This document shows positions 1 to 23,171 of a stretch of 37,982 nt of DNA, piece after piece. The translations under genes and the position numbers were made by a program. This DNA comes from an uncultured Methylophilaceae bacterium (GTDB lineage: Bacteria; Pseudomonadota; Gammaproteobacteria; Burkholderiales; Methylophilaceae). Every line of letters begins with the position of its first letter. The first letter of the stretch is position 1. The notes beneath the pieces are model-generated. The model was given only the letters and a program-made list of their open reading frames with translations, was not told the DNA's origin and did not search any database. The stretch is from the NCBI GenBank assembly GCA_903953055.1, contig CAJBIA010000137.1:1-37982 (forward strand). The letters are read 5' to 3'.

Positions 1-137
1 CCAAGCCAGTTAAAAACTGTTTGACGCACACGGTCCGGCGTTGGACGAAGTCCATCAACATCGGGGAACTTCATTAATCGACTACGCCATTCGCCCGCAC
101 TGATGCGAACCGTATTATTGGCTTTACTCAGTCCCAC
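1..137 (-). CDS. rsmD: 16S rRNA (guanine966-N2)-methyltransferase RsmD, N-terminal part
   Basis: Only the first 45 codons are inside the window; the gene runs off the left edge. The reading gives an N-terminus with RISAGEWRSR followed by GLRPTPDRVRQTVFNWL, which is the typical start of RsmD, the enzyme that methylates G966 of 16S rRNA. The best start is a GTG at 137 that overlaps the end of the upstream M16 peptidase gene by 14 bases, so translation is probably coupled. M16 peptidase genes next to rsmD are common in proteobacteria. The catalytic NPPF/Y motif lies outside the window, so activity cannot be judged. Confidence 0.85.
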   Translation of the reverse strand, partial: MGLSKANNTVRISAGEWRSRLMKFPDVDGLRPTPDRVRQTVFNWL

Positions 138-1443
138 CCACTACCACCGTGACCATTTTTTCTGGGTTTACACGGCGACTAAACGCATCTTTAATTTGCG
201 CCGTGGTGACCTTGCTGACATTTTGATTAAAGTCATCCAAATACGTGAGTGGTAGATGATAGAAACCAATGAGGCTGAGGTAATCTAAAATCTTACCGTT
301 ACTGTCGATGCGCATCGGGAAACCGCCCACAATGTTTTGTTTCGCTGCTTTGAGTTCAGGATCAGTGACGCCGTCCTTGATGAACTTGGCTAGGGTCTCT
401 CGCACTAAAGCCAAAGCCGCTTCCGATTGATCGCGCTTGGTTTGCAACCCAATTTGGAACTGGCCTAATTCAGCCATCGGCATAAAGTAACTATAAACGC
501 TGTAAACCAAACCACGCTTTTCGCGAACCTCTTCTGTGAGACGAGAGACAAAACCACCGCCGCCTAAAATATAGTTGCCCACATAAAGGGGAAAGTAATC
601 CGCATCCCCCCGTTTCATGCCTGGATAGCCTAATAAAATATGCGCTTGCGTGGCTGGATGGGCAATTTGCTGTTCTGAAGCGGCGGCTGGATAAGTCACC
701 GGTGGCAATGGGGATGGCTTTTGCGCTTTGGGCAATCCTGCTGAAATGGTTTCAGCAATTTTTTCGGCTTGCGCGCGGCTCATGTCCCCGATCAATGCAA
801 TGACCGCACCGTCTGCCCCATAATAAGTAGCGTAGAACTTTTTCAAATCCGCGACATTAATTTTAGCAACCGTCTCTGGTTCACCATCATCGTCTAACCC
901 ATAAGGATGATCACCATAGAGCGCTTTCATATAAGCCTTGCTAGAAATACTTTCAGGCTGCGTCGCAGATTCTTTAAGGCCTGCAATAATGCGGGCCTTT
1001 TCTCGCTCTAACACCGTCTCCGGAAAATCTGGCTTTTGCAAAATTTTAGTAAATATCTCCAAAGCTTTTTGAGATTCGCGCTCGCTAGATAAGGTGCGCA
1101 GCTTGAAACTAGCACGGTCAGCATCCAAGTCGCCGCCTGCTTTTGCCCCAATATCCGCCATCTGCTTGGAAATGTCTTCGTCAGACATCCCTGCCGCACC
1201 TAAGGTCATGAGATATCTCGTGATCCCAGCCACCCCTGATTTACCCTTTTCATCTCGCGCACTACCAGCATAAAAGTTGGCACTTAAATCGATAATAGGG
1301 AGGTCGTGATTTTCAACAAAGTAAACCAAGGAACCACTGCTGGTTTGCCATTGCTCTATTTTTAAGCCTGCCTGCGCTTGGAATGTAAAAAGCAATCCGA
1401 AAATGGTGATACTGAGGGCACGAATGAATGATTTAGTGAACAT
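124..1443 (-). CDS. M16 family peptidase, non-catalytic partner subunit
   Basis: A 439-residue secreted protein of the M16B (pitrilysin/processing-peptidase) family. The start is taken at ATG 1443, which has AAAGGAAAA just upstream; a longer reading of 20 residues lacks a good ribosome site. Residues 1-25 form a signal peptide ending QAQA. The zinc motif HxxEH is absent: the matching place reads GVAGITRYL. The C-terminal half keeps a glycine-rich loop and the arginine/tyrosine region (GGGGFVSRL, then REKRGLVYSVYS), typical of the substrate-binding subunit in two-chain M16 enzymes. It overlaps the catalytic gene upstream by 11 bases, so the two chains probably form a periplasmic heterodimer. 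The natural substrate is unknown. Confidence 0.88.
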   Translation of the reverse strand: MFTKSFIRALSITIFGLLFTFQAQAGLKIEQWQTSSGSLVYFVENHDLPIIDLSANFYAGSARDEKGKSGVAGITRYLMTLGAAGMSDEDISKQMADIGAKAGGDLDADRASFKLRTLSSERESQKALEIFTKILQKPDFPETVLEREKARIIAGLKESATQPESISSKAYMKALYGDHPYGLDDDGEPETVAKINVADLKKFYATYYGADGAVIALIGDMSRAQAEKIAETISAGLPKAQKPSPLPPVTYPAAASEQQIAHPATQAHILLGYPGMKRGDADYFPLYVGNYILGGGGFVSRLTEEVREKRGLVYSVYSYFMPMAELGQFQIGLQTKRDQSEAALALVRETLAKFIKDGVTDPELKAAKQNIVGGFPMRIDSNGKILDYLSLIGFYHLPLTYLDDFNQNVSKVTTAQIKDAFSRRVNPEKMVTVVVGGTE

Positions 1444-2812
1444 GGGGTTTTCCTTTCGGCGTCGTGTCGTTAGGATCAATGGGTTGCGGATCAAGGGTCG
1501 CAACCGTTAAATTATCTTTGTTGAAATATTTCTTAGCCACCGCTTGCACCTGCTCCGCGGTCACGGCTTGCAGTTTTGCAGGGTAATCTTTCAAGATTTT
1601 CCATGAAAAGCCTGCAGTCTCTAATTGCCCAATTTGCATGGCTTGATAAAACATAGAATCACGTTGATAAACATCCGCAGCAATCACTTGAGCTTTGACA
1701 CGAAGCAACTCTTCTTCCGTGACGCCGCCCGTTTTGATTTTGTCGATTTCTTGCATGAGCGCCACTTCTAATTCAGCAGCCGTTTTACCTTCTGAGGGCG
1801 TGCCGTCAAGCACAAAAATAGAATGACGACCGCGGTGGATCATATCGTACCCAGCATCCACATCCACTGCGACTTGAGATTGTCTGACAAGGTTTTGGTT
1901 AAGTCTGGCGGAAGCATTACCATTTAGCACACCGGCTAGGATTTCTAATGCGTACGGATCCACATCCTTATCCGCATCCTCTAATGCAGGGACGTGAAAG
2001 CCCATCAAAACATAAGGGAGTTTAGCCTGCGCTTTGACGATGACGCGGCGCTCACCCGTTTGCTCAGGTTCTGTTTGCGGTTTACGTGCAGGCAGGGCAT
2101 GGGGTTTAAGTACCCCAAAATATTGCTTGGCTAGTTTCAAGACCTCTTGTGAATTGACATCCCCTACCACCACTAATGTGGCGTTATTGGGGGCATACCA
2201 ATTCTTATACCATTCGCGCGCATCCGCTCCCGTCATGTTTTCTAAATCATTCATCCAGCCCACCACAGGTCTACCGTAGGGATGCACATGGTAAATGGTC
2301 GAATTGAACTGTTCATTCACTTTCGATTGCGGTTTATCTTCCGTGCGCCAGCGACGCTCTTCCATCACGACTTTAATTTCTTTAGCAAACTCTTCATCCG
2401 TTAAGTCTAAGTTCGCCATCCGATCGGCTTCAAGCTTCATCGAAAGGGGTAACTGAGATTTTTCTAATTGCTGGAAGTAAGTGGTTTGATCTTGTGCAGT
2501 AAACGCATTTTCTTTACCGCCTGCGGCTGCAATTAAACGTGAGAATTGCCCCGCTTTGATTTCTTTTGTGCCCTTAAACATCATGTGTTCTAGCACGTGA
2601 GCCACACCGGTTTTACCATTGACCTCATCCAAGCTACCAGCTCGGTACCAGACTTGAGAGACCACGACAGGAGCTCGATGGTCTTCTTGTACCACGACCT
2701 TGAGGCCATTGTCTAATTTGAACTCTTGAATTTCAGCTGCCATCGCCAATGATGAAAAACATAAGCTCATGAGCACACTTAAGCTCAAGGTTTTTAATTT
2801 AAAAATTTGCAC
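1433..2812 (-). CDS. M16 family zinc peptidase, catalytic subunit
   Basis: A 459-residue secreted metalloprotease. Residues 1-25 form a signal peptide (cleavage near AMA/AE). The inverted zinc motif HVLEH is at residues 72-76 and the distal glutamate is in VVMEERR at about 151-152, at the spacing normal for M16. The start is a GTG at 2812 with a strong AGAGGAGAG ribosome site upstream. The gene ends inside the start of the non-catalytic subunit gene, so the two are translationally coupled. Together they should make a periplasmic two-chain peptidase that cuts peptides or misfolded fragments. Specificity cannot be read from the sequence. Confidence 0.92.
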   Translation of the reverse strand: MQIFKLKTLSLSVLMSLCFSSLAMAAEIQEFKLDNGLKVVVQEDHRAPVVVSQVWYRAGSLDEVNGKTGVAHVLEHMMFKGTKEIKAGQFSRLIAAAGGKENAFTAQDQTTYFQQLEKSQLPLSMKLEADRMANLDLTDEEFAKEIKVVMEERRWRTEDKPQSKVNEQFNSTIYHVHPYGRPVVGWMNDLENMTGADAREWYKNWYAPNNATLVVVGDVNSQEVLKLAKQYFGVLKPHALPARKPQTEPEQTGERRVIVKAQAKLPYVLMGFHVPALEDADKDVDPYALEILAGVLNGNASARLNQNLVRQSQVAVDVDAGYDMIHRGRHSIFVLDGTPSEGKTAAELEVALMQEIDKIKTGGVTEEELLRVKAQVIAADVYQRDSMFYQAMQIGQLETAGFSWKILKDYPAKLQAVTAEQVQAVAKKYFNKDNLTVATLDPQPIDPNDTTPKGKPHVH

Positions 2813-2838
2813 GTTTTAACTCTCCTCTATACCCGTCT

Positions 2839-2844
2839 ATTATA
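2839..2844 (-). promoter_or_regulatory. Probable -10 box of the M16 peptidase operon
   Basis: Read on the minus strand, TATAAT stands 27 bases before the GTG start at 2812. It matches the sigma-70 -10 consensus exactly. No convincing -35 box is found 16-18 bases further upstream, so the promoter may be activator dependent or the match may be partly chance. Confidence 0.5.
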
Positions 2845-3047
2845 GCTGGCATCGCGCCATTAATCGTATTGCAAAATAGGTGACAGCTATGTGACTAATC
2901 AATCCCACATTAAGTTCTGCACCAAAAGTAAGAGAACTTAGGAAGTATCAAATATGAAGCTAAGCGTGCTAAGAATGTTTTGAAAGTTAACAGGGACTGC
3001 CAGAAGAGTGAAGCCAAACAGTAGTTGGCCAAACCCTGGAACTGAGT
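2845..3047. other. Intergenic stretch at the left edge of the sulfide/bd block
   Basis: About 200 bases without a convincing gene, between the M16 promoter and the 3' end of the first arsR gene. It contains an 8-bp inverted repeat TAAGTTCT/AGAACTTA (2911-2918 and 2933-2940, spacer 14) without a T-run, so it is not a clear terminator. A 30-codon open stretch follows at 2932-3024 with no start codon. I see nothing that identifies an insertion-sequence end or an attachment site. The segment is the presumed left junction of the accessory block. Confidence 0.4.
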
Positions 3048-3356
3048 TTATTTTGCACAATAGTGTTTGTATAGTAATGACATAACAGAGGCTGCAATCT
3101 CACTTGATAGTGAATAGTAAATCTTTTTTCCATCTCTTCTTGTTTTCACCAGCCCCTCTGTTCTAAGCACAGTTAATTGCTGAGATAGTGTTGGCTGTTG
3201 AATGTCTAAAATACCTTCAAGCTCCGTTACGTTTTTTTCACCCATATTAATCTGACATAACAATAACAATCTATCTCTATTTGATAGCACTTTCATTAAC
3301 TTACAGGCGTTATTAGCGGACCTTTGCATTTCTTTTGGATTTATATCGTCAGACAT
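3048..3356 (-). CDS. BigR/SqrR-like ArsR-family persulfide-sensing repressor
   Basis: A 102-residue winged-helix regulator of the ArsR/SmtB family. The recognition helix region reads QQPTLSQQLTVLR, and the wing reads KTRRDGKKIYYSL, close to BigR-type proteins. Cysteines stand at residues 34 (LLLLCQI) and 100 (KHYCAK), 66 apart. BigR (C42/C108) and SqrR (C41/C107) have the same spacing, and there the pair forms a di- or tetrasulfide that lifts repression. A third cysteine, C18, is extra. The start ATG at 3356 has GAGGTAA upstream. The gene is divergent from the AhpD-like gene, and a 26-bp palindrome lies between them. The expected role is repression of the neighbouring sulfur genes until persulfide appears. 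Confidence 0.87.
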   Translation of the reverse strand: MSDDINPKEMQRSANNACKLMKVLSNRDRLLLLCQINMGEKNVTELEGILDIQQPTLSQQLTVLRTEGLVKTRRDGKKIYYSLSSEIAASVMSLLYKHYCAK

Positions 3357-3370
3357 TGATTTACCTCAAA

Positions 3371-3419
3371 TTGCTTTATGTAGAACAGGTTTATATATTA
3401 TATAAAATTATATAATATA
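3371..3419 (+). promoter_or_regulatory. Divergent promoter with a 26-bp AT-rich palindromic operator
   Basis: The palindrome TATATTATATAA-AA-TTATATAATATA (3394-3419) has two perfect 12-bp arms around a 2-base centre. A plus-strand promoter can be drawn as TTGCTT (3371-3376), 17 bases, then TATATT (3394-3399), so the left arm covers the -10 box. BigR-type repressors bind AT-rich inverted repeats of this kind, so this is the likely operator of the adjacent arsR gene. Binding should block both directions. The repeat is directly visible; repressor identity is inferred. Confidence 0.75.
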
Positions 3420-3432
3420 AAGGGCAAAAACA

Positions 3433-3774
3433 ATGGCAAAAGTATACAAGGACATTACAAAAGACATTTCAAAGTCATTAGCAAAACTCCGAATAGAGGC
3501 GCCGGAGCTTATGAGAGCCTTTGGCGATATGGCAACTGCGGCTACAAAAGATGGTGCTTTGGATAAGAAAACAAAAGAGTTAATTGCGTTAGCGCTAGGT
3601 GTTGCATCTAGATGCGATGGATGTATCGGTTTTCATATGCAGGCACTTGGCAAGATGGGCGCAAGTAAGCAAGAGGTAATAGAAACGCTTGGAATGGCAG
3701 TTTATATGGGTGGAGGCCCTTCTCTCATGTATGCAGCTGATGCTATTGCAGCATTTGAAGAAACGACCATTTAG
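3433..3774 (+). CDS. AhpD-like carboxymuconolactone decarboxylase family protein
   Basis: A 113-residue all-helical protein of the CMD/AhpD family. The signature is complete: E49, then RCDGCIGFH with C61, C64 and H68. In AhpD this CxxC-x3-H arrangement is a thiol redox centre with peroxidase or disulfide-reductase activity. The ATG at 3433 has AAAGGG upstream. It is the first gene behind the palindromic operator and is followed by two small genes in the same direction. In this setting a role in reducing or handling persulfides is plausible, but that is inference; the sequence shows only a redox-active CMD protein. Confidence 0.85.
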   Translation: MAKVYKDITKDISKSLAKLRIEAPELMRAFGDMATAATKDGALDKKTKELIALALGVASRCDGCIGFHMQALGKMGASKQEVIETLGMAVYMGGGPSLMYAADAIAAFEETTI

Positions 3775-3797
3775 AATTAATTTTTAGGAGAATTTAA

Positions 3798-3926
3798 ATG
3801 TTAAAAGTTTTATTTTATTCATTGCCAGGCCAATTAACGGTGCTAAGCATTTCATTCATGGTGTTCATGATGGGCTATCTAATCTATTACGTCATGAAAA
3901 AAATGAAAGAAGAGTCCAAAAAATAG
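3798..3926 (+). CDS. DUF3149-like small single-pass membrane protein
   Basis: A 42-residue ORF with a good AGGAG site 8 bases before ATG 3798. Residues 13-32 are hydrophobic (LTVLSISFMVFMMGYLIYYV) and the tail is lysine-rich (KKMKEESKK), which predicts one membrane helix with a cytoplasmic C-terminus. Size and pattern resemble DUF3149 proteins, whose function is unknown. It lies between the AhpD-like and DUF302 genes with short gaps, so it is probably part of the same transcript. The family assignment is by pattern only. Confidence 0.65.
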   Translation: MLKVLFYSLPGQLTVLSISFMVFMMGYLIYYVMKKMKEESKK

Positions 3927-3941
3927 AATAAGGTGGTCTTT

Positions 3942-4325
3942 ATGTATTACATCGTTAAAACCAGCAAATCATTTAACCAAGCTTCAACAGACCTAAAAGA
4001 AGCAATTGTGCGCAATGGATTTGGAACATTATATGTCCATGATATAGGGACTACACTTCGCAATAAGGGCATTGCTTTTGCTGAGGAGTGTAAAGTATTT
4101 GAAGTCTGCAATCCAAAGGACGCAGCAAAAGTTTTATCTGTTGATATGCGTTTAAACATGGCTTTGCCATGCCGTATCTCTGTTTATACAGAAAAAGGGG
4201 AAACAAAAATCGGGCTGATAAAGCCAGTGCAAATGCTTTCGGCCTTATCTAACGACGATGCGTTAATGCAAGTAGCAAAAAAAGTTGAGGAAAAGATCAT
4301 TAAGATGGCGAATGAATCGAAATGA
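3942..4325 (+). CDS. DUF302 family protein
   Basis: A 127-residue protein that matches the DUF302 fold family in length and pattern: N-terminal KTSKSFNQASTDLKEAI, then GFGTLYVHDIGTTLRNKG, then VCNPKDAAKVLSVD and LPCRISVYTEKGETKIGLIKP. The start is taken at ATG 3942 because AAGGTGG lies 5 bases upstream; a GTG nine bases earlier would sit inside that site. It has no signal peptide, so it should be cytoplasmic. DUF302 genes are often found beside sulfur-oxidation genes but their biochemical role is not established. It converges with the transporter genes on the other strand with a 41-base gap and no clear terminator. Confidence 0.8.
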   Translation: MYYIVKTSKSFNQASTDLKEAIVRNGFGTLYVHDIGTTLRNKGIAFAEECKVFEVCNPKDAAKVLSVDMRLNMALPCRISVYTEKGETKIGLIKPVQMLSALSNDDALMQVAKKVEEKIIKMANESK

Positions 4326-4366: not shown

Positions 4367-4789
4367 TTAACGTTTTTTGTAAACCTCAATCAAATGATCG
4401 TGGATATACATCCCAACAATCATCGCCATGACAAAAATAAACGCCTCTTTATAGCCAGCTCCTAAGGCTACTAGTGCAGGGCCAGGGCAAAATCCAGCCA
4501 ATGCCCATCCAGCGCCAAATAATACACTGCCAATTATTAATTCTTTGGGAACGTGGGTTGTGCCAGGCAAATGAATCGGATCATCAAATATTGTTTTGCT
4601 TTTATTTTTCACAAACCTAAAGCCCAAGAACGCAATGGATATTGCACCAATCATTACGTAGGCAAGGCTTGGGTCCCACTGCCCTTCGATGTCAAGAAAG
4701 CCAATAACTTTTGCCGGGTTGGTCATACCAGATATGATTAAGCCGAGACCAAAAATGAGTCCGGCTAACAAAGTAATAATATTTTTCAT
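4367..4789 (-). CDS. YeeE/YedE-type transporter half, PmpB-like (DUF6691)
   Basis: A 140-residue membrane protein with about four helices. Conserved features are FGLGLIISGMTNPAKVIGFLD near the N-terminus and AGFCPGPALVALGAG near residue 100; the cysteine in FCPGPA is typical of the YeeE/YedE sulfur-transport family. Here the protein is only half the length of a full YeeE, and the other half is the gene just upstream (3 bases between them). The two products probably pair to form one channel-like permease for a sulfur compound, as proposed for PmpA/PmpB in Serratia and in bigR-type operons. The exact substrate (thiosulfate, sulfide or another) is unknown. Confidence 0.85.
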   Translation of the reverse strand: MKNIITLLAGLIFGLGLIISGMTNPAKVIGFLDIEGQWDPSLAYVMIGAISIAFLGFRFVKNKSKTIFDDPIHLPGTTHVPKELIIGSVLFGAGWALAGFCPGPALVALGAGYKEAFIFVMAMIVGMYIHDHLIEVYKKR

Positions 4790-4792
4790 AAT

Positions 4793-5236
4793 TTAAATCG
4801 CATGTAGAAATAGGTAGCAAACGATAAAGCCCGAAAACATAAAGCTAACCGTCGCTATTAAAGATCTAGGGGAGAGTCGACTTAGGCCACATATCCCATG
4901 ACCGCTTGTGCAACCAGAACCCATTCTTGTTCCAAACCCTACCAATAAGCCAGCAAGAATGAGCGTGCCTTTGGATGCTGAAATGTTAATTTCTGGTAGT
5001 GGTGCAAAAAATTGATATATAAAACTCGATCCAATGAGGCCAATAAGGAATAGCGTCCGCCAAAGATGATGTCCTTGTTGGATGTTTTCTGTTTCCATTA
5101 GGCCCGCAACAATACCGCTGATACCAGCGATTTTTCCTCTGTATATAACTAATACGCTGGCTGCAAGGCCGATTAACATGCCACCCACCAATGAAGCGAT
5201 AGGGGTGAAGTTGGGCGAATCAATATATAAATGCAT
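4793..5236 (-). CDS. YeeE/YedE-type transporter half, PmpA-like
   Basis: A 147-residue membrane protein, the partner half of the PmpB-like gene. It carries the family motif GSGCTSGHGICGLSRLSPRS near residues 105-125, with two cysteines thought to act in sulfur transfer through the pore, and GKIAGISGIVAGL near residue 40. The start is set at ATG 5236; a TTG five codons earlier is possible but has no better ribosome site. It is divergent from the second arsR gene, and the region between holds a palindromic operator. The pair is likely controlled with the persulfide dioxygenase operon. Confidence 0.86.
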   Translation of the reverse strand: MHLYIDSPNFTPIASLVGGMLIGLAASVLVIYRGKIAGISGIVAGLMETENIQQGHHLWRTLFLIGLIGSSFIYQFFAPLPEINISASKGTLILAGLLVGFGTRMGSGCTSGHGICGLSRLSPRSLIATVSFMFSGFIVCYLFLHAI

Positions 5237-5295
5237 ACTTATTTTTCTCAAATGATAATATTTCTAGGTCTATATTAAAGGTTAATGAGATCATT

Positions 5296-5330
5296 TTGTT
5301 AAATATATTTCTATATAACTATATAGTAAT
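5296..5330. promoter_or_regulatory. Second divergent promoter with palindromic operator
   Basis: CTATATA-AC-TATATAG (5311-5326) is a perfect inverted repeat with a 2-base centre; counting the next four bases on each side (5307-5330) the arms are 11 bp with one mismatch. This is the same design as the palindrome at 3394-3419. A plus-strand promoter TTGTTA (5296-5301), 18 bases, TATATA (5320-5325) would place the -10 box inside the repeat. The likely ligand is one of the two ArsR proteins; which one cannot be told from the sequence. Confidence 0.65.
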
Positions 5331-5366
5331 GTAACATCCTATTATGTTCTATTTAAGGTAAGTTGT

Positions 5367-5714
5367 ATGAGTCAATTAGATGAGCAAGCATTTAGTCATA
5401 TCGCTAGATATTTTCAGGCATTGGCTGAGCCTATGCGCCTCAAAATATTAAATGGCTTAAGGGATGGGGAGAAGAACGTCACTGAGCTTGTTGAGATTTC
5501 TGGTGGTACTCAAGCGAATGTCTCCAAGCACCTCGCATTATTAAGAGATGCAAAACTAATTGAACGAGACTCTAGGGGCACTAAAGCTTATTACAGCATC
5601 TCGGATCAGCGCATATACGAATTGTGCAATTTAGTTTGCGGACAAATTGCTAACCAAATGAGTCTTGATGCAGCCGCCAATGAAGCCTTTATTTCAGCAT
5701 TAAAAATAAATTAG
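5367..5714 (+). CDS. Second ArsR/SmtB-family repressor
   Basis: A 115-residue winged-helix protein: FQALAEPMRLKILNGL, the DNA-contact helix GTQANVSKHLALLRDA, and the wing ERDSRGTKAYYSI. It differs from the first ArsR protein in its cysteines: the second-helix cysteine is missing (LKILNGL) and two cysteines, C87 and C91, sit together in the C-terminal helix (YELCNLVCGQ). It may therefore sense a metal, a thiol-reactive molecule or persulfide by another route. The ATG at 5367 has AAGGTAAG upstream. It is the first gene of a long run ending at cydX, so it may autoregulate that operon through the palindrome just upstream. Confidence 0.87.
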   Translation: MSQLDEQAFSHIARYFQALAEPMRLKILNGLRDGEKNVTELVEISGGTQANVSKHLALLRDAKLIERDSRGTKAYYSISDQRIYELCNLVCGQIANQMSLDAAANEAFISALKIN

Positions 5715-5742
5715 ATACAACAAAAACTAAGAGGGGATGACG

Positions 5743-6447
5743 ATGATTTTCAAACAATTCTTTGAGCCTGATACTAGTACCTTCACATACCTATTGGCTT
5801 GTGAAAAAACCAAACAAGCTGTACTGATTGATACAGTTGAGTCTGAGGTACCTAAATATCTAAAAGAACTAGAAGCGCAGGATTTAAAGTTAGTCTATAC
5901 GCTTGAGACTCACGTGCATGCTGACCATGTCACAGGGGCGGACACTTTAAGACAAAAGCTAGGCAGCAAGAGCGTTGTGCATCGCGATGCAGGGGCGATG
6001 TGCGGTGATTTATTAGTCACAGATGGTGTTCACATTATTGTTGGCACCATTGACTTAGAAGTGCGTTACACCCCAGGCCATACCAATGGCTGTATCAGCC
6101 TCTTTGCTGGTGACCGCATCTTTACAGGTGACTCATTGCTAATTGGTGGTTGTGGACGTACCGATTTCCAAGCTGGGAATTCTGGACAGCTCTTTGATAG
6201 CATTCATGCACAAATCTTCAGCTTAGCAGATGACGTCATTGTTTATCCTGGACATGATTACAACGGTAATACTCAATCAACAGTAGGTGAAGAGCGCAAG
6301 CACAATAAGCGTTTAGGGGATAACAGAAGTCGTGAAGATTTCATTAAGCTCATGGGTGAGCTTAAGTTGGCATATCCAAAATATATCGATGTTGCACTTC
6401 CAGCTAATCAAGCCTGCGGAAGAGTAGTGCCAGCGCAAGCTGCTTAA
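5743..6447 (+). CDS. Persulfide dioxygenase, ETHE1/Blh-type MBL-fold protein
   Basis: A 234-residue metallo-beta-lactamase-fold protein. ETHVHADHVTGA puts HxHxDH at residues 57-62; PGHTNGC (H113), FTGDSLLIGGCGRTDF (D130) and YPGHDYNG (H171) complete the ligand set. ETHE1-like enzymes keep one iron through two histidines and an aspartate and oxidise glutathione persulfide to sulfite. Start ATG 5743 is preferred over ATG 5737 because GAGGGG is 6 bases from the former and touches the latter. It follows arsR by 28 bases and precedes the SQR fusion, which should supply its persulfide substrate. Cytoplasmic. It lacks the N-terminal DUF442 domain found in classic Blh proteins; here that domain is on the next gene. 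Confidence 0.9.
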   Translation: MIFKQFFEPDTSTFTYLLACEKTKQAVLIDTVESEVPKYLKELEAQDLKLVYTLETHVHADHVTGADTLRQKLGSKSVVHRDAGAMCGDLLVTDGVHIIVGTIDLEVRYTPGHTNGCISLFAGDRIFTGDSLLIGGCGRTDFQAGNSGQLFDSIHAQIFSLADDVIVYPGHDYNGNTQSTVGEERKHNKRLGDNRSREDFIKLMGELKLAYPKYIDVALPANQACGRVVPAQAA

Positions 6448-6489
6448 AACAAAAATATAACAATAAAAAAAATTAGCGGAGTGGATCAA

Positions 6490-8160
6490 ATGAAGTTAGC
6501 AAATTTAGCAGAAGGTTTTTTAGTCGCAGACCAAATTCTAGTAGACGATTTAAAAAGTCTTGCTGAGCTGGGCATAAAAACCATCATGTGTCATCGTCCT
6601 GATGGCGAAGGTGCAGACCAACCTAATTTTGAAGAAATCTCAAAAGCTGCAAAGAAGCTAAAAATCAAAACTCATTATTTGCCCGTTGTTGCTGGCAAAA
6701 TCTCTGATGAGGATGTGGCTGCATTTGCTCAAATATTCAAAGACATTGATAAGCCAGTCCTAGGCTATTGCCGTTCTGGTATGCGAGCAGCTTCACTTTG
6801 GGCATTAAGCCAGGCTTCCTCAGTTGGCTTATCAGAAGTGCTTAATACAGGAAGAAATGCGGGGTACGACTTATCTGGATTAACTCAAAGAATCATAGGG
6901 GCTAATTCAAATGGTTCTGATGTTATGCATCATGAAATTGTTATTGTTGGCGGTGGTGCTGCAGGAATTGCTGTTGCTTCTAGCTTGCTTTCTCGAAACT
7001 CAAAATTAGATGTGGTGATTATTGATCCAGCAGAGACCCATTATTATCAACCTGGTTGGACCATGGTCGGTGGAGGTATATTTAAGCCTGCAACAACAGT
7101 CAAAACGATGGCATCTGTCATTCCTTCAAAAGCAAAGTGGATTAAAGCTGCAGTAGCGGGATTTGAGCCAGAAGCTAAGCAAGTGATTCTAGAAGGTTGC
7201 CGCCCCATCAGTTACGACACGCTGATTGTTTGTCCTGGTATCAAACTCAATTGGCATGGCATTGAAGGCTTAGTTGAAACACTCGGCCAAAATGGTGTGA
7301 CTTCGAACTACCGATATGACTTAGCTCAATACACTTGGGAATTAGTTAAACAATTCAAAAAGGGCAAAGCTGTATTTACGCAGCCACCCATGCCAATTAA
7401 ATGTGCCGGCGCCCCACAAAAAGCGATGTATTTATCTGCAGACCATTGGTTAAGAAATGGGCATTTAAAAGACATTCAAATCCACTTCTACAATACTGGC
7501 GCAGTCTTATTTGGCGTAAAAGAATATGTGCCCGCTTTGATGGAGTATGTCGAACGCTATAAGGCGAATCTGCACTTTAGTCATCGCCTCACAAAAATTG
7601 ATGGGCCGGCTAAAAAAGCCTGGTTTAGTGTCACTGATGCTGATGGCAACACCTCAATGCTTGAAACATCTTTTGATATGATTCATGTGGTGCCGCCGCA
7701 ACAAGCACCTGATTTTATTCGCGCAAGTAAGTTGGTAGATGCAACGGGTTGGGTCGATGTAAATCAAGACACGCTTCAGCACAAAACTTATCCAAACATC
7801 TATGCCTTGGGTGATGTGACGAATTGCCCGAATGCAAAAACAGCAGCAGCCGCGCGTAAACAAGCCCCTGTAGTTGCAACGAACGTGCTCTTTGATTTGA
7901 ACAAGGGCAATCAACGGGCAGCCTATGATGGCTATGGGTCATGTCCATTAACGGTCGAGCGCGGCAAAATTGTTTTAGCGGAGTTTGGATTTGGTGGCCA
8001 TTTATTACCAAGTTTCCCAAAATGGTTGATTAATAGCCAAAGACCTTCTCGTCTAGCATGGATTTTAAAAGAGCGTATTTTGCCACCAATTTACTGGTGG
8101 GCAATGCTTAAAGGCCGCGAGTGGTTAGCTAAACCAATCAAAATCGATGCCGACAAGTAG
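6490..8160 (+). CDS. Fusion of TIGR01244/DUF442 sulfurtransferase-like domain with sulfide:quinone oxidoreductase
   Basis: A 556-residue two-domain protein. Residues 1 to about 115 are the DUF442 domain with a CRSGMR loop (C94 to R99); a six-residue CRxGxR loop is like that of rhodaneses. From about 148 comes a FAD/NAD-fold oxidoreductase: IVIVGGGAAG (FAD site), PIKCAGAPQKAMYL with C305, YALGDVTNCPNAKTAAAA with C446, GYGSCPLT near 483, and a C-terminal amphipathic tail with PPIYWWAMLKGREWL suited to membrane contact. These features fit a type II-like SQR, which oxidises sulfide and passes electrons to quinone. ATG 6490 is chosen since GGAG is 8 bases upstream; a GTG at 6481 overlaps that site. 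The cysteine in GDVTNCP is three residues later than the human SQOR C379 position, so the catalytic pair should be checked. Confidence 0.9.
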   Translation: MKLANLAEGFLVADQILVDDLKSLAELGIKTIMCHRPDGEGADQPNFEEISKAAKKLKIKTHYLPVVAGKISDEDVAAFAQIFKDIDKPVLGYCRSGMRAASLWALSQASSVGLSEVLNTGRNAGYDLSGLTQRIIGANSNGSDVMHHEIVIVGGGAAGIAVASSLLSRNSKLDVVIIDPAETHYYQPGWTMVGGGIFKPATTVKTMASVIPSKAKWIKAAVAGFEPEAKQVILEGCRPISYDTLIVCPGIKLNWHGIEGLVETLGQNGVTSNYRYDLAQYTWELVKQFKKGKAVFTQPPMPIKCAGAPQKAMYLSADHWLRNGHLKDIQIHFYNTGAVLFGVKEYVPALMEYVERYKANLHFSHRLTKIDGPAKKAWFSVTDADGNTSMLETSFDMIHVVPPQQAPDFIRASKLVDATGWVDVNQDTLQHKTYPNIYALGDVTNCPNAKTAAAARKQAPVVATNVLFDLNKGNQRAAYDGYGSCPLTVERGKIVLAEFGFGGHLLPSFPKWLINSQRPSRLAWILKERILPPIYWWAMLKGREWLAKPIKIDADK

Positions 8161-8187
8161 TCCATATAAACAGTTAAAGGCTTGTTC

Positions 8188-9036
8188 ATGATCGATCCTA
8201 TTAGTCTCAGTATTGCGCTAGGCGTGTTTGTTGGCTTTGTGCTGGCAATCACTGGCGCAGGCGGTGCAATTCTTGCATTACCACTTTTGGTGTTTTTCTT
8301 ACACCTTAAAATGATTGATGCAGCGCCTATATCTCTCATGGCAATCATGCTGTCGGCTGGTCTTGCTGCAGCCTTGGGTTTGAGAAGCGGCATCGTTCGA
8401 TATAAAGCGGCGACGCTGCTTGCAACCTTTGGCGTGCTTTGCGCACCTATTGGCGTATATGTTGCCCACCAGCTGCCTGAGAAAGGGCTAGCAGTGCTCT
8501 TCTCGATTGTATTGTTAATTGTTTCATGGCGTTCATTCCAGAAGTTTCAAACGCCGACCTTGTTGATTGGGGACGATTGTGATGACCCAAATGGCTGCGA
8601 TGATGAACCAAAAGAAGAACCGGCCTGTGCAGTAAATCCAGCAACATCCAAATTGTTTTGGACAGCCTCATGTACTAAACGCCTCATTTTAACGGGCGGA
8701 TTTTCAGGCTTCTTATCTGGACTCCTAGGTGTTGGCGGCGGTTTTATTATCGTACCTACGCTACATAGCATTTCTAACCTGGAAACTAAAATGATTGTGG
8801 CAACATCTCTTGCAGTCATTGCCTTAGTCTCAATGGCTAGCGCCTTCTCTTACGCAGGTAATGGCACTATTTTATGGAGCGTTGCTGTTCCCTTTGTGAG
8901 TGCAACTGTCGTGGGTATGGGCATAGGAAGAATGCTGCATAGCAAAATACCAAGTCATATGAGCGTGCTAATTTTTGGTATCTTGTCATTAACAATTGCT
9001 ATTTTGATGCTCATAAAAACAGCAATTGGAGTCTAG
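8188..9036 (+). CDS. TauE/SafE (TSUP) family sulfur-compound exporter
   Basis: A 282-residue integral membrane protein with two repeats of the TSUP fold: AITGAGGAILALPLLVFF near the N-terminus and GFLSGLLGVGGGFIIVPTL in the second half. Eight or so hydrophobic segments are visible. The loop between the halves is strongly acidic and contains cysteines (DDCDDPNGCDDEPKEEPAC). Start ATG 8188 has AAAGG 7 bases upstream. Members of this family export sulfite or related organosulfur anions; behind an SQR and persulfide dioxygenase, sulfite or thiosulfate export is the natural guess. Substrate is inferred from context. Confidence 0.87.
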   Translation: MIDPISLSIALGVFVGFVLAITGAGGAILALPLLVFFLHLKMIDAAPISLMAIMLSAGLAAALGLRSGIVRYKAATLLATFGVLCAPIGVYVAHQLPEKGLAVLFSIVLLIVSWRSFQKFQTPTLLIGDDCDDPNGCDDEPKEEPACAVNPATSKLFWTASCTKRLILTGGFSGFLSGLLGVGGGFIIVPTLHSISNLETKMIVATSLAVIALVSMASAFSYAGNGTILWSVAVPFVSATVVGMGIGRMLHSKIPSHMSVLIFGILSLTIAILMLIKTAIGV

Positions 9037-9038
9037 GT

Positions 9039-9674
9039 ATGGATCAAAAAAAATTCTGGACCGAACGTTATCAAACTGCTGGAAATGATTTTTTATTTGG
9101 ACGTGAGCCATCAGAGTTCCTAGTTAAAAAAAGAACAATGTTTAAAGCGCGCGAATCAGTGCTCATGATTGCAGATGGTGAAGGTCGAAATTCAGTTTGG
9201 CTTGCAGCTCAGGGCCTTAAAGTGACTGCAAATGAAATTTGTAAGGTGGCAATAGATAGGGCCAAAAAGCTAGCGCACGAGTCAAACGCTTATGTTGAAA
9301 TTGTTGAATGCGATATTTTGACTGACGAATGGCCGATGAAATGTGACCAAGATTCATTCGATTGGGTTATAGGTATTTTTATTCAATTTGCTAATACAGA
9401 AGAGCGTAAGAAACTCTTTTCTTTCATGAAGGCGATGACTAAACCCAATGGCAGAATACTATTGCTAGGCTATACCCCAAAGCAACTTGAATATAAAACG
9501 GGGGGGCCATCTGCAATTGAGAATCTATATACGCAAGAGCTTTTGCACGATGCATTTCAAGATTGGGATTTAGAAGAGCTGGTCGAATACGAAAAAGATA
9601 TTTCCGAAGGGATGGGGCATAAAGGGATGTCTGCTTTGATAGGAATGGTCGCAACAAAACCCTCGGGCGCCTAG
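9039..9674 (+). CDS. Class I SAM-dependent methyltransferase
   Basis: A 211-residue Rossmann-fold methyltransferase. The SAM motif I region is VLMIADGEGRNSVWLA, motif II region ILTDEWPMKCDQDSFDWVIGIF, and the N-terminus FWTERYQTAGNDFLFGREPSEFL resembles small methyltransferases of the TehB/thiopurine-like group. It starts 2 bases after the TauE/SafE stop, so it is translated from the same message. The substrate is unknown. Because TehB-like enzymes methylate chalcogen anions or thiols, methylation of a reduced sulfur species is possible here, but nothing in the sequence proves it. Confidence 0.82.
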   Translation: MDQKKFWTERYQTAGNDFLFGREPSEFLVKKRTMFKARESVLMIADGEGRNSVWLAAQGLKVTANEICKVAIDRAKKLAHESNAYVEIVECDILTDEWPMKCDQDSFDWVIGIFIQFANTEERKKLFSFMKAMTKPNGRILLLGYTPKQLEYKTGGPSAIENLYTQELLHDAFQDWDLEELVEYEKDISEGMGHKGMSALIGMVATKPSGA

Positions 9675-9682
9675 CGATTTAA

Positions 9683-9874
9683 ATGATAAAGAAACCTTTC
9701 TTAAAGTTAACAAGTTTTATTCGATCTAAAGGATTAGGTTTTGAGATCAGCCTCATCTTAGCCATTAAGATCTTTTTATTATGGGCAATTTGGTGGATAT
9801 GTTTTTCACATCCAATCGCAAAAGAATCAAGACAGCATGCTGTTACCCAAATTTTATTAACGCCATCAAAGTAG
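9683..9874 (+). CDS. cydP: CydP-like small subunit of cytochrome bd oxidase
   Basis: A 63-residue protein with one hydrophobic segment (FEISLILAIKIFLLWAIWWI, residues 20-39) followed by CFSHP. This pattern and the position just upstream of cydA match CydP, a putative small subunit seen in proteobacterial cyd operons. It starts 8 bases after the methyltransferase stop and ends 9 bases before cydA. The ribosome site is weak, which suggests translational coupling. Function in the oxidase is not experimentally clear for the family. Confidence 0.75.
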   Translation: MIKKPFLKLTSFIRSKGLGFEISLILAIKIFLLWAIWWICFSHPIAKESRQHAVTQILLTPSK

Positions 9875-9883
9875 GTTTCAATT

Positions 9884-11440
9884 ATGTTGCCATCCGCTGA
9901 AGTAATCGATTTATCACGTTTGCAATTTGGTGCAACTGCGCTCTATCACTTCTTGTTTGTGCCACTAACCCTCGGCTTAAGCTGGATATTAGTCATCATG
10001 GAATCTGTTTATGTCATGACAGGTAAAGAAGTCTATCGAGACATGACTAAATTCTGGGGTAAGTTGTTCGGAATTAATTTTGCGATGGGTGTTACAACAG
10101 GCATAACTATGGAGTTTCAGTTTGGTACAAACTGGGCTTACTACTCTCATTATGTTGGCGATATTTTTGGGGCACCTCTCGCTATCGAAGGCTTAATGGC
10201 CTTCTTCTTAGAGTCGACATTCGTAGGTTTGTTCTTCTTTGGCTGGGACAAGCTATCCAAGCAGAAACACTTGATGGTGACATTCTTAGTTGCCCTTGGG
10301 TCCAATCTCTCAGCACTCTGGATTTTGATTGCAAATGGATGGATGCAGAATCCAGTTGGAGCAGAGTTCAACTTTGAAACAATGCGAATGGAAATGACAA
10401 GCTTTGCGGCACTGCTTCTAAATCCAGTTGCTCAGGTAAAGTTTGTGCATACCGTAGCTGCTGGATATACCACTGCTTCAATGTTTGTTTTAGGAATCTC
10501 TTCTTGGTACTTACTTAAAAAGCGTGATGTGGGCTTTGCTCTAAGATCGATTGCAGTTGCTTCTGGTTTTGGACTAGCCTCAGTGCTTTCCGTCATTGTT
10601 CTCGGTGATGAGTCTGGGTATACAACTGGCGAAGTTCAGAAGGTTAAGCTAGCAGCTATTGAAGCTGAGTGGCATACAGAAGAAGCGCCTGCCGCATTCA
10701 CACTATTTGGGCTACCGAACCAAAAAGATGAGCACACAGATTACGCGCTAAAGGTGCCTTATGTCATGGGCATCATTGCAACTCGCTCACTTGATGAACA
10801 GGTAACAGGCCTAAGTGAAATAAAAGCAGAGAATGAGCTGAGAATTAGAAATGGCATGGTCGCTTATAACGACTTACAGAGATTAAAAAAAGGCGATCAA
10901 TCAGAAGAGGCTAAAGCTGCATTTCAGAAATCTAAAGATGATTTGGGTTATGGTCTATTGCTAAAGAAATATACGGCTAATGTTACCGATGCTTCAGAAG
11001 CTCAAATTAAGCAGGCTGCTAATGACACGATTCCTAATGTGTTCGCATTGTTTTGGTCGTTCCGTGTGATGGTTGGAATTGGCTTTTTAATGTTGTTCAT
11101 TTTTGGTGCTAGTTTTTACTACACAGCCAAGCGAAACATCAACCAGAAAACTTGGTTATTACGTCTGGCCTTATTCGCAATTCCAATTCCTTGGATTGCT
11201 GCTGAAATGGGCTGGGTTGTAGCTGAAATGGGTCGTCAACCTTGGACGATTTCTGGCATTCTCCCGACGCACCTATCTTCATCGTCGCTCTCAACGGGTG
11301 ATTTGTATTTTAGTCTATCTGGATTTATGGGTTTTTATACATTGCTTCTGATTGTTGAAATGTTCTTGATGTTTAAGTATGCACGACTTGGCCCATCCAG
11401 TTTGCATACAGGCAAATATCACTTCGAAACCATTCGCTAG
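9884..11440 (+). CDS. cydA: Cytochrome bd ubiquinol oxidase subunit I
   Basis: A 518-residue protein very close in pattern to E. coli CydA (522). The b595 ligand histidine is in [12 protein letters not shown] (H22, equivalent to E. coli H19), [20 protein letters not shown] and [14 protein letters not shown] are conserved, and the quinol loop ([19 protein letters not shown]) is of the long-Q-loop type with the KLAAIEAEW block kept. The C-terminal GRQPW and [19 protein letters not shown] are also typical. Membrane-bound; it oxidises quinol and reduces oxygen to water without proton pumping. It is embedded behind sulfide genes in one run, which fits the known sulfide resistance of bd oxidases. 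Confidence 0.97.
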
Positions 11441-11449
11441 AAAGTCATT

Positions 11450-12595
11450 ATGGAATTATTTAATTATGAATTTTTAAAGCTTACTTGGTGGTTGTTTGTA
11501 GGCATATTGTTGATTGGCTTTGCTGTCATGGATGGTTTTGATATGGGGGTCGCAGCCTGGCTACCCTTCTTAGGAAAGACCGATGATGAAAGACGAGTCA
11601 TTATTAATACGGTTGGTCCAGTTTGGGAGGGGAATCAAACTTGGTTAATTACAGCTGGCGGGGCCATATTTGCTGCATGGCCTTTGGTTTATGCTGCAGC
11701 GTTTTCTGGTATGTATATCGCATTGCTTCTAGTTTTGTTCGCTTTGTTCTTTAGGCCAGTAGGTTTCGATTACAGAAGCAAACTTACCAATGCATCATGG
11801 AGAAGCACTTGGGACTGGGCTTTATTTGCTGGCGGGGTAATCCCATCATTAGTATTTGGTGTGGCCTTTGGTAATTTATTACTTGGTTTACCGTTTCACT
11901 ATGATGAAACATTACGCTCTTTTTATACGGGCAGTTTTTGGGATCTGCTCAATCCTTTTGCTCTATTATGTGGAGTTGTTAGCTTGAGTATGTTAATGAC
12001 GCACGGCGCGATTTATTTGCAACTTAGAACTGATGCCCATGTGCAAGCGAGAGCAAAAAAAGCCGCGCAATGGATGGGGCTAGTTTTTATTATTAGCTTT
12101 GCAGTTGCAGGCCTTTGGGTGGCTTATGGAATTGATGGGTATATTCTTACATCCCATCAAGATTTTAATGCGGCGTTAAATCCTTTATCAAAGACAGTTT
12201 CAATTTCTTCGGGTGCATGGCTCAATAATTACCAATCCTACCCTTGGATGATGGCAGCCCCATTGATTGGATTTTTAGGGATGATGTTTGCTCTCCTGAA
12301 TGCAAAGTTCAAGAATGAGGGTTTGGCTTTTATCGGAAGTAGCTTATCAATTGCTGGTGTTATCTTAACGGCAGGATTTTCTATGTTCCCATTTGTAATG
12401 CCTTCTGCGACAGATCCAGTAAGTAGTTTAACGATGTGGGATGCTGTCTCTAGTAAAAAAACCATGGGGATTATGTTGGTAGTTACATTAATTTTTCTGC
12501 CACTTATCCTTTTCTATACATCTTGGGTATTCAGCGTGCTGAGGGGCAAAGTAACATTGCAGACCATACAAGATCACACTAACTCGATGTATTAA
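11450..12595 (+). CDS. cydB: Cytochrome bd ubiquinol oxidase subunit II
   Basis: A 381-residue membrane protein with the CydB signature: LIGFAVMDGFDMGVA near residue 22-35 and NTVGPVWEGNQTWLI near residues 55-68, followed by the helices typical of a 379-residue E. coli protein. It starts 9 bases after cydA. CydB pairs with CydA to form the oxidase core. No cydDC genes for haem/thiol export are present in the window; they may lie elsewhere. Confidence 0.97.
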   Translation: MELFNYEFLKLTWWLFVGILLIGFAVMDGFDMGVAAWLPFLGKTDDERRVIINTVGPVWEGNQTWLITAGGAIFAAWPLVYAAAFSGMYIALLLVLFALFFRPVGFDYRSKLTNASWRSTWDWALFAGGVIPSLVFGVAFGNLLLGLPFHYDETLRSFYTGSFWDLLNPFALLCGVVSLSMLMTHGAIYLQLRTDAHVQARAKKAAQWMGLVFIISFAVAGLWVAYGIDGYILTSHQDFNAALNPLSKTVSISSGAWLNNYQSYPWMMAAPLIGFLGMMFALLNAKFKNEGLAFIGSSLSIAGVILTAGFSMFPFVMPSATDPVSSLTMWDAVSSKKTMGIMLVVTLIFLPLILFYTSWVFSVLRGKVTLQTIQDHTNSMY

Positions 12596-12611
12596 AAGAA
12601 AGGGCAAACCA

Positions 12612-12719
12612 ATGTGGTACTTTGCTTGGATTTTAGGTGTTGGATTAGCGCTAGCTTTTGGCGTGATCAATGCGATGTGGCTTGAAGCAAGTCATTCAGA
12701 ATATGACGATTTCAACTAG
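12612..12719 (+). CDS. cydX: Cytochrome bd small subunit CydX
   Basis: A 35-residue ORF directly behind cydB with AAAGGG upstream of its ATG. The N-terminus MWYFAWILGVGLALAFGVI is nearly the same as E. coli CydX, and a conserved glutamate (WLE) follows the helix. CydX is a single-pass subunit that stabilises the oxidase haems. It is the last gene of the run. Confidence 0.95.
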   Translation: MWYFAWILGVGLALAFGVINAMWLEASHSEYDDFN

Positions 12720-12804
12720 AAACAACCACTTCTGAAATATATCAGACGATTTAATATAGTCGTCAATCTAAGAAGCCTTTAAATATTTCCATAAGCTTAG
12801 CCCG

Positions 12805-12877: not shown

Positions 12878-12902
12878 AAGTTAGTTGTACGTTACTTGCA
12901 GC

Positions 12903-13115
12903 CTACGCAACGACCTTTCTCTCTACCTTGTAGCCTTTAATAAACTCCAGGCCCTTAACATCGGTCATGATGGTGCCATCTAAGGTTGATTCATTAAGGT
13001 TAGTACCAGTAATGTCAGCCCCAGTTAAGTCAGCTTGACTTAAGTCTGCTCTAAACAAGTCCGTGTTTCTTAAGTTAGCAATCTTAATAGCGTCGAATCT
13101 TTCGAAACATATGTA
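12903..13115 (-). pseudogene. Truncated pentapeptide-repeat protein remnant
   Basis: On the minus strand an open frame ending at TAG 12903 reads IKIANLRNTDLFRADLSQ and then further five-residue A(D/N)Lxx units (ADLTG, ADITG, TNLNE, STLDG), closing with KGYKVERKVVA. This is the end of a pentapeptide-repeat protein. The frame is closed by TAA at 13116-13118, and no start codon lies inside, so only the C-terminal part of about 70 residues is left. With the rest of 12720-13217 holding no other gene, this fragment is probably debris from an earlier insertion or deletion between cydX and ftsY. Confidence 0.72.
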
Positions 13116-23157: not shown

Positions 23158-23171
23158 TTGATTTACATCAA
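23158..23171 (-). promoter_or_regulatory. Perfect FNR/ANR-type box
   Basis: TTGAT-TTAC-ATCAA matches the FNR/ANR consensus in all ten fixed positions. On the minus strand the predicted start of transcription would be near 23123, 60 bases before the 32-residue ORF. A 6-bp inverted repeat AATCTG/CAGATT (23112-23128) overlaps that point. Confidence 0.78.

Follow-up and report, generated by a model that had tools for sequence, protein, structure and literature searches.

The window, a stretch of 37,982 nucleotides, is contig C137 of a metagenome-assembled genome (MAG; 1.67 Mb in 159 contigs, 89.6% complete) that we take to be a Candidatus Methylopumilus, a freshwater methylotroph, and on its + strand (5367-12719) it carries nine co-directional genes: arsR, a persulfide dioxygenase (PDO) gene, a gene for a fusion of a BLH domain to sulfide:quinone oxidoreductase (SQR), tauE, a methyltransferase gene, and the cydP, cydA, cydB and cydX genes of a cytochrome bd oxidase. 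We consider it probable that this is a conserved Methylopumilus sulfide operon with cydPABX at its 3' end, and that the oxidase is co-transcribed with and induced alongside the sulfide-oxidation enzymes, the whole serving as a sulfide-to-oxygen chain under ArsR control. Because cydPABX lies at the 3' end of the operon, bd is most likely transcribed and induced together with sulfide oxidation.

The nine genes are separated, in order, by 22, 33, 27, 2, 8, 9, 9 and 16 bp (with ATG 8188 as the start of tauE), and from this layout we infer a single transcript. The original prediction, made from the sequence and a list of its open reading frames, had proposed nine such frames in one direction; all are present on the + strand, and profile searches agree with the family named for each. 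Its maximum gap of about 42 bp is obtained if sqr starts at ATG 6490, and shortens to 33 bp with GTG 6481. A scan of 7494-12732 for sigma-70-like sites found none on the + strand, although this silence is weak because the scan gave no site at the arsR operator either and returned fewer sites than shuffled sequence (9 as against 20).

Ten genomes of the genus, the window's included, show how the arrangement varies at this site. The SQR fusion is present in six of the ten (at least 78% identity, near full length) and CydA in two. One congener (G008) has yeeAB divergent from arsR-pdo-sqr-tauE-methyltransferase, followed by ftsY and with no cyd genes, and both the 3' end of its methyltransferase gene and the region upstream of its ftsY align to the window on the two sides of cydPABX. 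Since ftsY follows the first five genes in G008, we regard cydPABX as a variable 3' addition; the cyd genes do form part of a sulfide-oxidation run, as was first suggested, but they sit at its 3' end rather than inside it, and the operon occurs in a congener without them. In a further congener (G006), cydABX is found on one 8.5-kb contig with yeeAB, arsR, pdo, sqr and tauE, at the opposite end, and its CydA is 95% identical to that of the window over the 233 residues present. This contig begins inside cydA (the N-terminal part was found in no contig of the genome) and stops 25 bp past tauE, and it might conceivably be a circular element. Between the cyd and sulfide genes it carries genes for hemerythrin, an ArsP-type permease and thioredoxin, and its gene order may differ from that of the genome. 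A chimeric contig might be suspected in a MAG of 159 pieces, but the operon-like spacing continues across the junction, both flanks match G008, and G006 independently joins cyd and the sulfide cluster on one contig; we consider such an artefact extremely improbable.

Similar pairings recur in the family. Among 150 Methylophilaceae genomes, 22 have an E. coli-type CydA (partial genes counted, a 39-residue fragment in G106 excluded), and linkage was assessed from matches to the window's proteins within about 8.5 kb around cyd. PDO, SQR or BLH lies near cyd on the same contig in six of the 22 (G000, which is the window's genome, G006, G044, G094, G099 and G110). In G110, PDO is divergent from a run of BigR-like, BLH, tauE, cydP, cydA, cydB and cydX genes. 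Both G094 and G044 have PDO, SQR, a SulP-type permease and cyd with a divergent sigma-54 activator alongside, and G099 has PDO, SulP and cyd with the divergent activator and no SQR there; the permease and activator were scanned in G094, and their counterparts in G099 and G044 are 71-78% identical. The activator may be of the FisR type, a name we give it from its position and the Acinetobacter baumannii case discussed below. In G027 cydPABX is immediately preceded by an arsR of the window's subfamily, and PDO, SQR and BLH are missing there. In a CydA tree, one clade unites G044, G094 and G099 (100/99) and a separate one contains the window, G110 and G027 (97/97), within which G110 pairs with the unlinked G101 (95/98) and the exact place of the window is unsettled. 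Ten of the 16 inner branches are open and G044, G094 and G099 possibly join L053 (see below) by long-branch attraction, and we use the tree only for the two supported clades and the G101-G110 pair. Because the linked genomes fall into separate CydA clades, the couplings probably arose more than once, and from these sequences we infer at least two, probably more, separate couplings.

To look beyond the family we took the best 80 of 590 SQR-relative loci, with up to 10 kb on each side. CydA and CydB homologues occur in 12 of these 80 (L029, L033, L035, L052, L053, L055, L057, L058, L064, L065, L067 and L077), all 12 from Alphaproteobacteria and three of them Roseomonas-like. CydA is found in 68 of the 80 genomes (118 matches, fragments counted), and from CydA copy numbers, genome sizes and locus lengths only 0.50 cyd-linked loci are expected. 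The Poisson probability is about 3e-13 for at least 12 loci and 2e-4 for at least five; we prefer the latter, because the loci are not independent. As a control, the two COX1 proteins of the window's own cell match none of the 80 loci, also at E 0.1, and both match both control loci. Strict same-strand adjacency of cydA, cydB and SQR is seen in L033 and L055, cydABX is followed by another SQR-like flavoprotein in L053, and an opposite-strand BigR-like gene lies between cydAB and SQR in L052 and L058. A search of other genomes for SQR genes adjacent to cydAB had been proposed as a check on the original prediction, and its outcome here, in the SQR scan and in the family, is a recurrent association.

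The enzymes encoded in the run are of the expected kinds. The PDO has an ETHE1-like metallo-beta-lactamase fold (E 4.5e-61 to ETHE1 4chl and 1.9e-68 to 4ysb). The SQR portion of the fusion has the FAD domain and the first redox cysteine motif, IKCAGAPQK; this motif is found in 88 of 88 SQRs compared, a count that cannot show absence because the SQRs were picked by carrying such a motif. At the second redox cysteine the window has GDVTNCPNAKT, with Cys three residues later than in the GDC of human/mitochondrial SQOR, and the commonest form at this site is GDVMNAPNAKT (49 of the 88), with no Cys. The BLH domain fused to the SQR might contribute a cysteine of its own. CydA aligns without gaps over 511 positions to the E. 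coli CydA of 6rko and keeps ten of ten functional positions, the equivalents of what we take to be H19, E99, E107, H186, K252, E257, R391, M393, E445 and R448 in the E. coli numbering. Its long Q-loop, together with CydB (TIGR00203) and CydX (TIGR02106) matches above cut-off, assigns the oxidase to the bd-I group.

The genome encodes a single CydA, and curated models identify its two COX1 proteins, above cut-off, as CtaD (aa3, contig C129) and CcoN (cbb3, contig C62); bd is therefore the only quinol oxidase found in the genome. The cbb3 oxidase had been anticipated from assembly genes, and the aa3-type enzyme is an addition to that picture. According to the excerpted text of PMC4815019 (the other articles cited here were likewise available as excerpts), both E. 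coli bd oxidases were measured to be insensitive to sulfide and bo3 was inhibited, which together with CtaD and CcoN supports the earlier proposal that bd is the sulfide-tolerant oxidase of a cell that also has aa3 and cbb3.

An inverted repeat with two arms of 14 nt (5304-5317 and 5320-5333, 86% complementary) lies between arsR and the divergent yeeAB genes, confirming a palindrome that had been placed at about 5300. Its right half falls mostly within a core that is invariant in eight of eight aligned intergenic regions of relatives. The core pattern ATATAACNATATANTNATGTA is present in 14 of 163 loci, or 10 distinct places, in all of which it lies upstream of an arsR from the window's subfamily, and it is absent from 17 arsR relatives not beside PDO and from the PDO-linked arsR of G147. 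We regard the repeat as a good candidate for the operator, and it could serve both divergent directions; yeeAB are divergent from arsR also in G004, G005, G006 and G008. Further Methylopumilus genomes (G007, locus L146; G009, locus L143) have arsR-pdo-tauE with no SQR between them and keep the operator core.

A sulfide-to-oxygen chain under ArsR would probably operate as follows. SQR would oxidise sulfide and pass the electrons into ubiquinone, from which cytochrome bd would carry quinol electrons to O2 with no need of a bc1/cytochrome c branch, while PDO would oxidise the persulfide formed and sulfite or thiosulfate would exit via TauE. The bd branch would sustain respiration and SQR turnover while sulfide blocks aa3 and cbb3. 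ArsR bound at 5304-5333 would keep the unit repressed, and modification of Cys87/Cys91 by a thiol-reactive ligand, probably a reactive sulfur species, would relieve the repression.

Several observations weigh against this interpretation, and the first group of them concerns the arrangement of the genes. G005 has no methyltransferase gene at the site and carries instead two transporter permeases and a CysA-like ATPase (a sulfate-type ATP-binding cassette system) between tauE and ftsY; together with the contents of G008, this indicates that the insertion site is variable in general. In the family, 16 of the 22 genomes with CydA have no PDO, SQR or BLH within about 8.5 kb of cyd, although five of these 16 (G017, G031, G036, G046 and G069; G027 is among the 16) have cyd on short or cut contigs. 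In a sample of 399 genomes of the order, SQR (E <= 1e-60) is found in 31 and CydA (E <= 1e-40) in 218, with CIO-type copies incompletely seen, and among the matches listed only G000 and G044, both Methylophilaceae, carry SQR within 10 kb of cydA, so the pairing is not a general one across the order. In seven of the 12 alphaproteobacterial loci cydAB and SQR are on opposite strands, and in both opposite-strand loci scanned (L029 and L067) an Rrf2-type regulator is located beside cydAB. Lastly, the CydDC exporter is needed for bd assembly in E. coli, and a search of the MAG, 89.6% complete, found no CydD at the cut-off of 435 (CydC was not searched separately). The best CydD match, at 282.7 bits, is MsbA and not CydD.

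These data raise the alternative that cyd merely landed where genes turn over, after the sulfide operon and ahead of ftsY, and is driven by a promoter of its own, perhaps regulated by oxygen or growth, as might be expected of a site that holds sulfate-type transporter genes in G005 and no gene in G008, and of a cydA that is away from sulfide genes in most of the family. The gap between the methyltransferase gene and cydP is only 8 bp, however, with no promoter-like site found in our weak scan; separate arrangements exist under different types of regulator; and 12 of the best 80 of 590 SQR loci are cyd-linked where 0.5 would be expected, with COX1 in none. On balance we think a chance landing unlikely.

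The second group of observations concerns the regulator, which the original prediction had treated as a sensor of sulfide or persulfide. Two conserved cysteines characterise the SqrR/BigR/YgaV class (Cys50 and Cys116 in H. denitrificans SoxR; PMC10451225, excerpt). The operon ArsR has only Cys87 and Cys91, with N29 and A95 in the columns of the BigR-like Cys34 and Cys100, and it scores 39.2 bits with the BigR model NF040642 against a cut-off of 155, so that the earlier assignment finds no support here. The CxxxC motif is found instead, in 25 of 25 members of this ArsR family among the 150 Methylophilaceae genomes; because it lacks the SqrR/BigR cysteines and has CxxxC, the operon ArsR belongs to another class. 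A structural model of low confidence (mean pLDDT 59), which we use only to place both cysteines in the C-terminal helix, predicts that helix 80-114 contains them. Among the 17 ArsR relatives not beside PDO, six neighbours were scanned, and each is an HlyD-type efflux adaptor (in one case an RND adaptor by NCBIfam).

It is accordingly conceivable that the ligand of ArsR is arsenite, a different soft metal or an electrophile, and that bd is induced by a general thiol-reactive stress rather than by sulfide itself. The CxxxC motif of all 25 members found, the missing SqrR/BigR pair and the efflux adaptors are all in keeping with this, as is a cyanobacterial sqr operon reported to be co-regulated by arsenite and sulfide via ArsR (PMC4918915, excerpt). 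Yet arsR precedes the PDO gene in eight of the 25 cases, a BLH-type gene adjoins it in L160 (confirmed by scanning) and in L161, and the neighbours of the window's arsR include no recognised arsenic gene (most relatives' neighbours were not scanned). We judge thiol stress the less probable inducer, though one to be taken seriously; that the ligand is a reactive sulfur species is itself a guess from the company that the gene keeps in Methylopumilus. In L160 (G111) the CxxxC arsR is flanked by a free-standing BLH-type gene and an HlyD-type efflux adaptor, efflux being linked there to sulfur-transfer genes; L161 (G065) resembles it by layout alone.

Cytochrome bd oxidases often serve microaerobic respiration, and sulfide and low O2 coincide in lakes, raising the possibility that bd is present for low O2, with sulfide a proxy for the oxycline and high O2 affinity the benefit. 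Against this, the cell already has a cbb3 oxidase, usually a high-affinity enzyme, and no FNR-like box lies shortly before cydP; within 9047-10064 none has two or fewer mismatches, in agreement with the original prediction, and boxes of this quality often arise by chance (46 in the window, 32 expected). We find the low-O2 explanation quite unlikely and, from the layout of the genes, infer that oxidase switching would be a response to sulfide rather than to oxygen. A perfect FNR-like box, TTGATTTACATCAA, is located elsewhere, at 23158-23171, in the gap between UbiB-like and MiaB-like genes (named by eye).

Parts of this arrangement have known counterparts, among them a FisR-controlled A. baumannii operon with PDO, SQR and TauE in the same order as in the window; sulfide induces pdo-sqr-tauE and raises cydAB too, and its authors predicted an SQR-CydAB link via ubiquinone (PMC7315123, excerpt). 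There, however, cydAB is elsewhere in the genome (A1S_1433-1434, compared with A1S_1708-1711) and a sigma-54 activator acts as regulator, whereas the window has cydPABX in the run and ArsR. The BigR operons yeeE-yedE-pdo2 (PMC7315123) share with the window an ArsR-superfamily regulator, YeeE/YedE proteins and PDO; they differ in that the window's operon ArsR is not BigR-like and its BigR-like gene is outside the operon, and G110 is a closer case. In E. coli, the route by which sulfide induces bd was called unknown before YgaV (PMC9774250), a sulfide-responsive ArsR-superfamily regulator that acts on bd genes and whose mutation raises cydAB reads (PMC9774250, PMC11858517); unlike the arrangement here, it regulates a separate locus and shares no operon with SQR. 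In cydEAB and cioRAB a repressor is co-transcribed with bd and bd confers sulfide resistance (PMC6096048, PMC11837568), but the repressors are of the GbsR type and, in the excerpts available, the operons have no sulfide-oxidation genes. The cyanobacterial sqr-arsR operon noted above likewise has an ArsR-type regulator with sqr, and its excerpted text mentions no cyd genes.

We found no description of SQR and cydAB in one operon, although coverage of subscription journals was limited and an earlier report could be missed. A survey from 2015 that covered over 200 bd gene clusters (PMC5322542) does not mention sulfide, SQR or ArsR in its main text, as available, and the excerpts of PMC2754497, PMC8002359, PMC11830464, PMC6431628 and PMC12856154 contain no SQR-cydAB operon. 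The functional idea of a sulfide-tolerant, sulfide-induced bd is already known from E. coli and A. baumannii; its physical join with SQR we have not found described.

The run is a compact case of SQR and bd together, with one candidate promoter, one candidate repressor and one short sulfide-to-O2 chain, and the recurrence, the absence of COX1 from the 80-locus control and the pair of congeners with and without cyd bring a link between sulfide and the choice of oxidase within direct reach of experiment. The pairings elsewhere suggest that cells repeatedly bundle sulfide removal with sulfide-proof respiration. A broader and more tentative proposal, to which we would not give an even chance, is that proteobacterial sulfide operons have repeatedly captured bd as a one-transcript sulfide-to-oxygen module with exchangeable regulators (FisR-type, BigR-type, or a CxxxC ArsR sensing reactive sulfur), making the choice of oxidase a sulfide decision and not an oxygen decision. 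The cluster may likewise throw light on the life of methylotrophs close to sulfidic oxyclines.

Features of the run and its surroundings, with window positions, strand and basis of each assignment
Feature	Position	Strand	Basis
Two YeeE/YedE-type half-transporters, yeeAB	ORFs 4367-4789 and 4793-5251	-	Named from sequence and gene order
Probable operator, inverted repeat TATATTTCTATATA-AC-TATATAGTAATGTA	5304-5333	.	Repeat and conserved core
arsR, ArsR/SmtB repressor, Cys87 and Cys91 (CxxxC) in last helix	5367-5714	+	HTH_5/ArsR
Persulfide dioxygenase (PDO), ETHE1-like	5737-6447	+	Lactamase_B; solved relatives 4ysb, ETHE1 4chl
BLH_phosphatase domain-SQR fusion	6481-8160	+	PF04273, TIGR01244, Pyr_redox_2; mitochondrial SQOR 308 bits
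TauE/SafE exporter (putatively for sulfite or thiosulfate)	8188-9036	+	PF01925, 155 bits
S-adenosylmethionine (SAM) methyltransferase, TPMT/TehB-like	9039-9674	+	PF13649 (Methyltransf_25), PF05724, PF03848
cydP, small bd-associated membrane protein	9683-9874	+	NF045611, 50.4 bits, cut-off 29.6
cydA, bd subunit I, E. coli long Q-loop type	9884-11440	+	PF01654 (Cyt_bd_oxida_I), 579 bits; 6rko alignment
cydB, bd subunit II	11450-12595	+	TIGR00203, 501 bits; Cyt_bd_oxida_II, 347 bits
cydX (CydX/YbgT), small subunit	12612-12719	+	TIGR02106, 62 bits
Second ArsR-family regulator, BigR/SqrR-like, outside operon	3048-3356	-	NF040642; Cys34 and Cys100

The BigR-like gene outside the operon has NF040642 as its best model, with 102.7 bits against the equivalog cut-off of 155, and its two cysteines align with those of two other BigR-like proteins. 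A CMD-family gene (3433-3774) and a DUF302 gene (3942-4325) lie divergent to it. G002 has a homologue of it (62%) before pdo-sqr, at the place where the window has its ArsR, a swap of regulators within the genus. In a contig binned as Sulfuritalea, positions 1-4155 (L036) carry arsR-pdo-sqr-tauE at 90, 94, 91 and 88% identity to the window, and it would be either a mis-binned Methylopumilus contig or a recent transfer. Between cydX and ftsY, the - strand at 12882-13115 has pentapeptide-repeat character (ADLSQADLTGADITGTNL) within a spacer of 36% GC that has no counterpart in G008, and it looks like a gene remnant.

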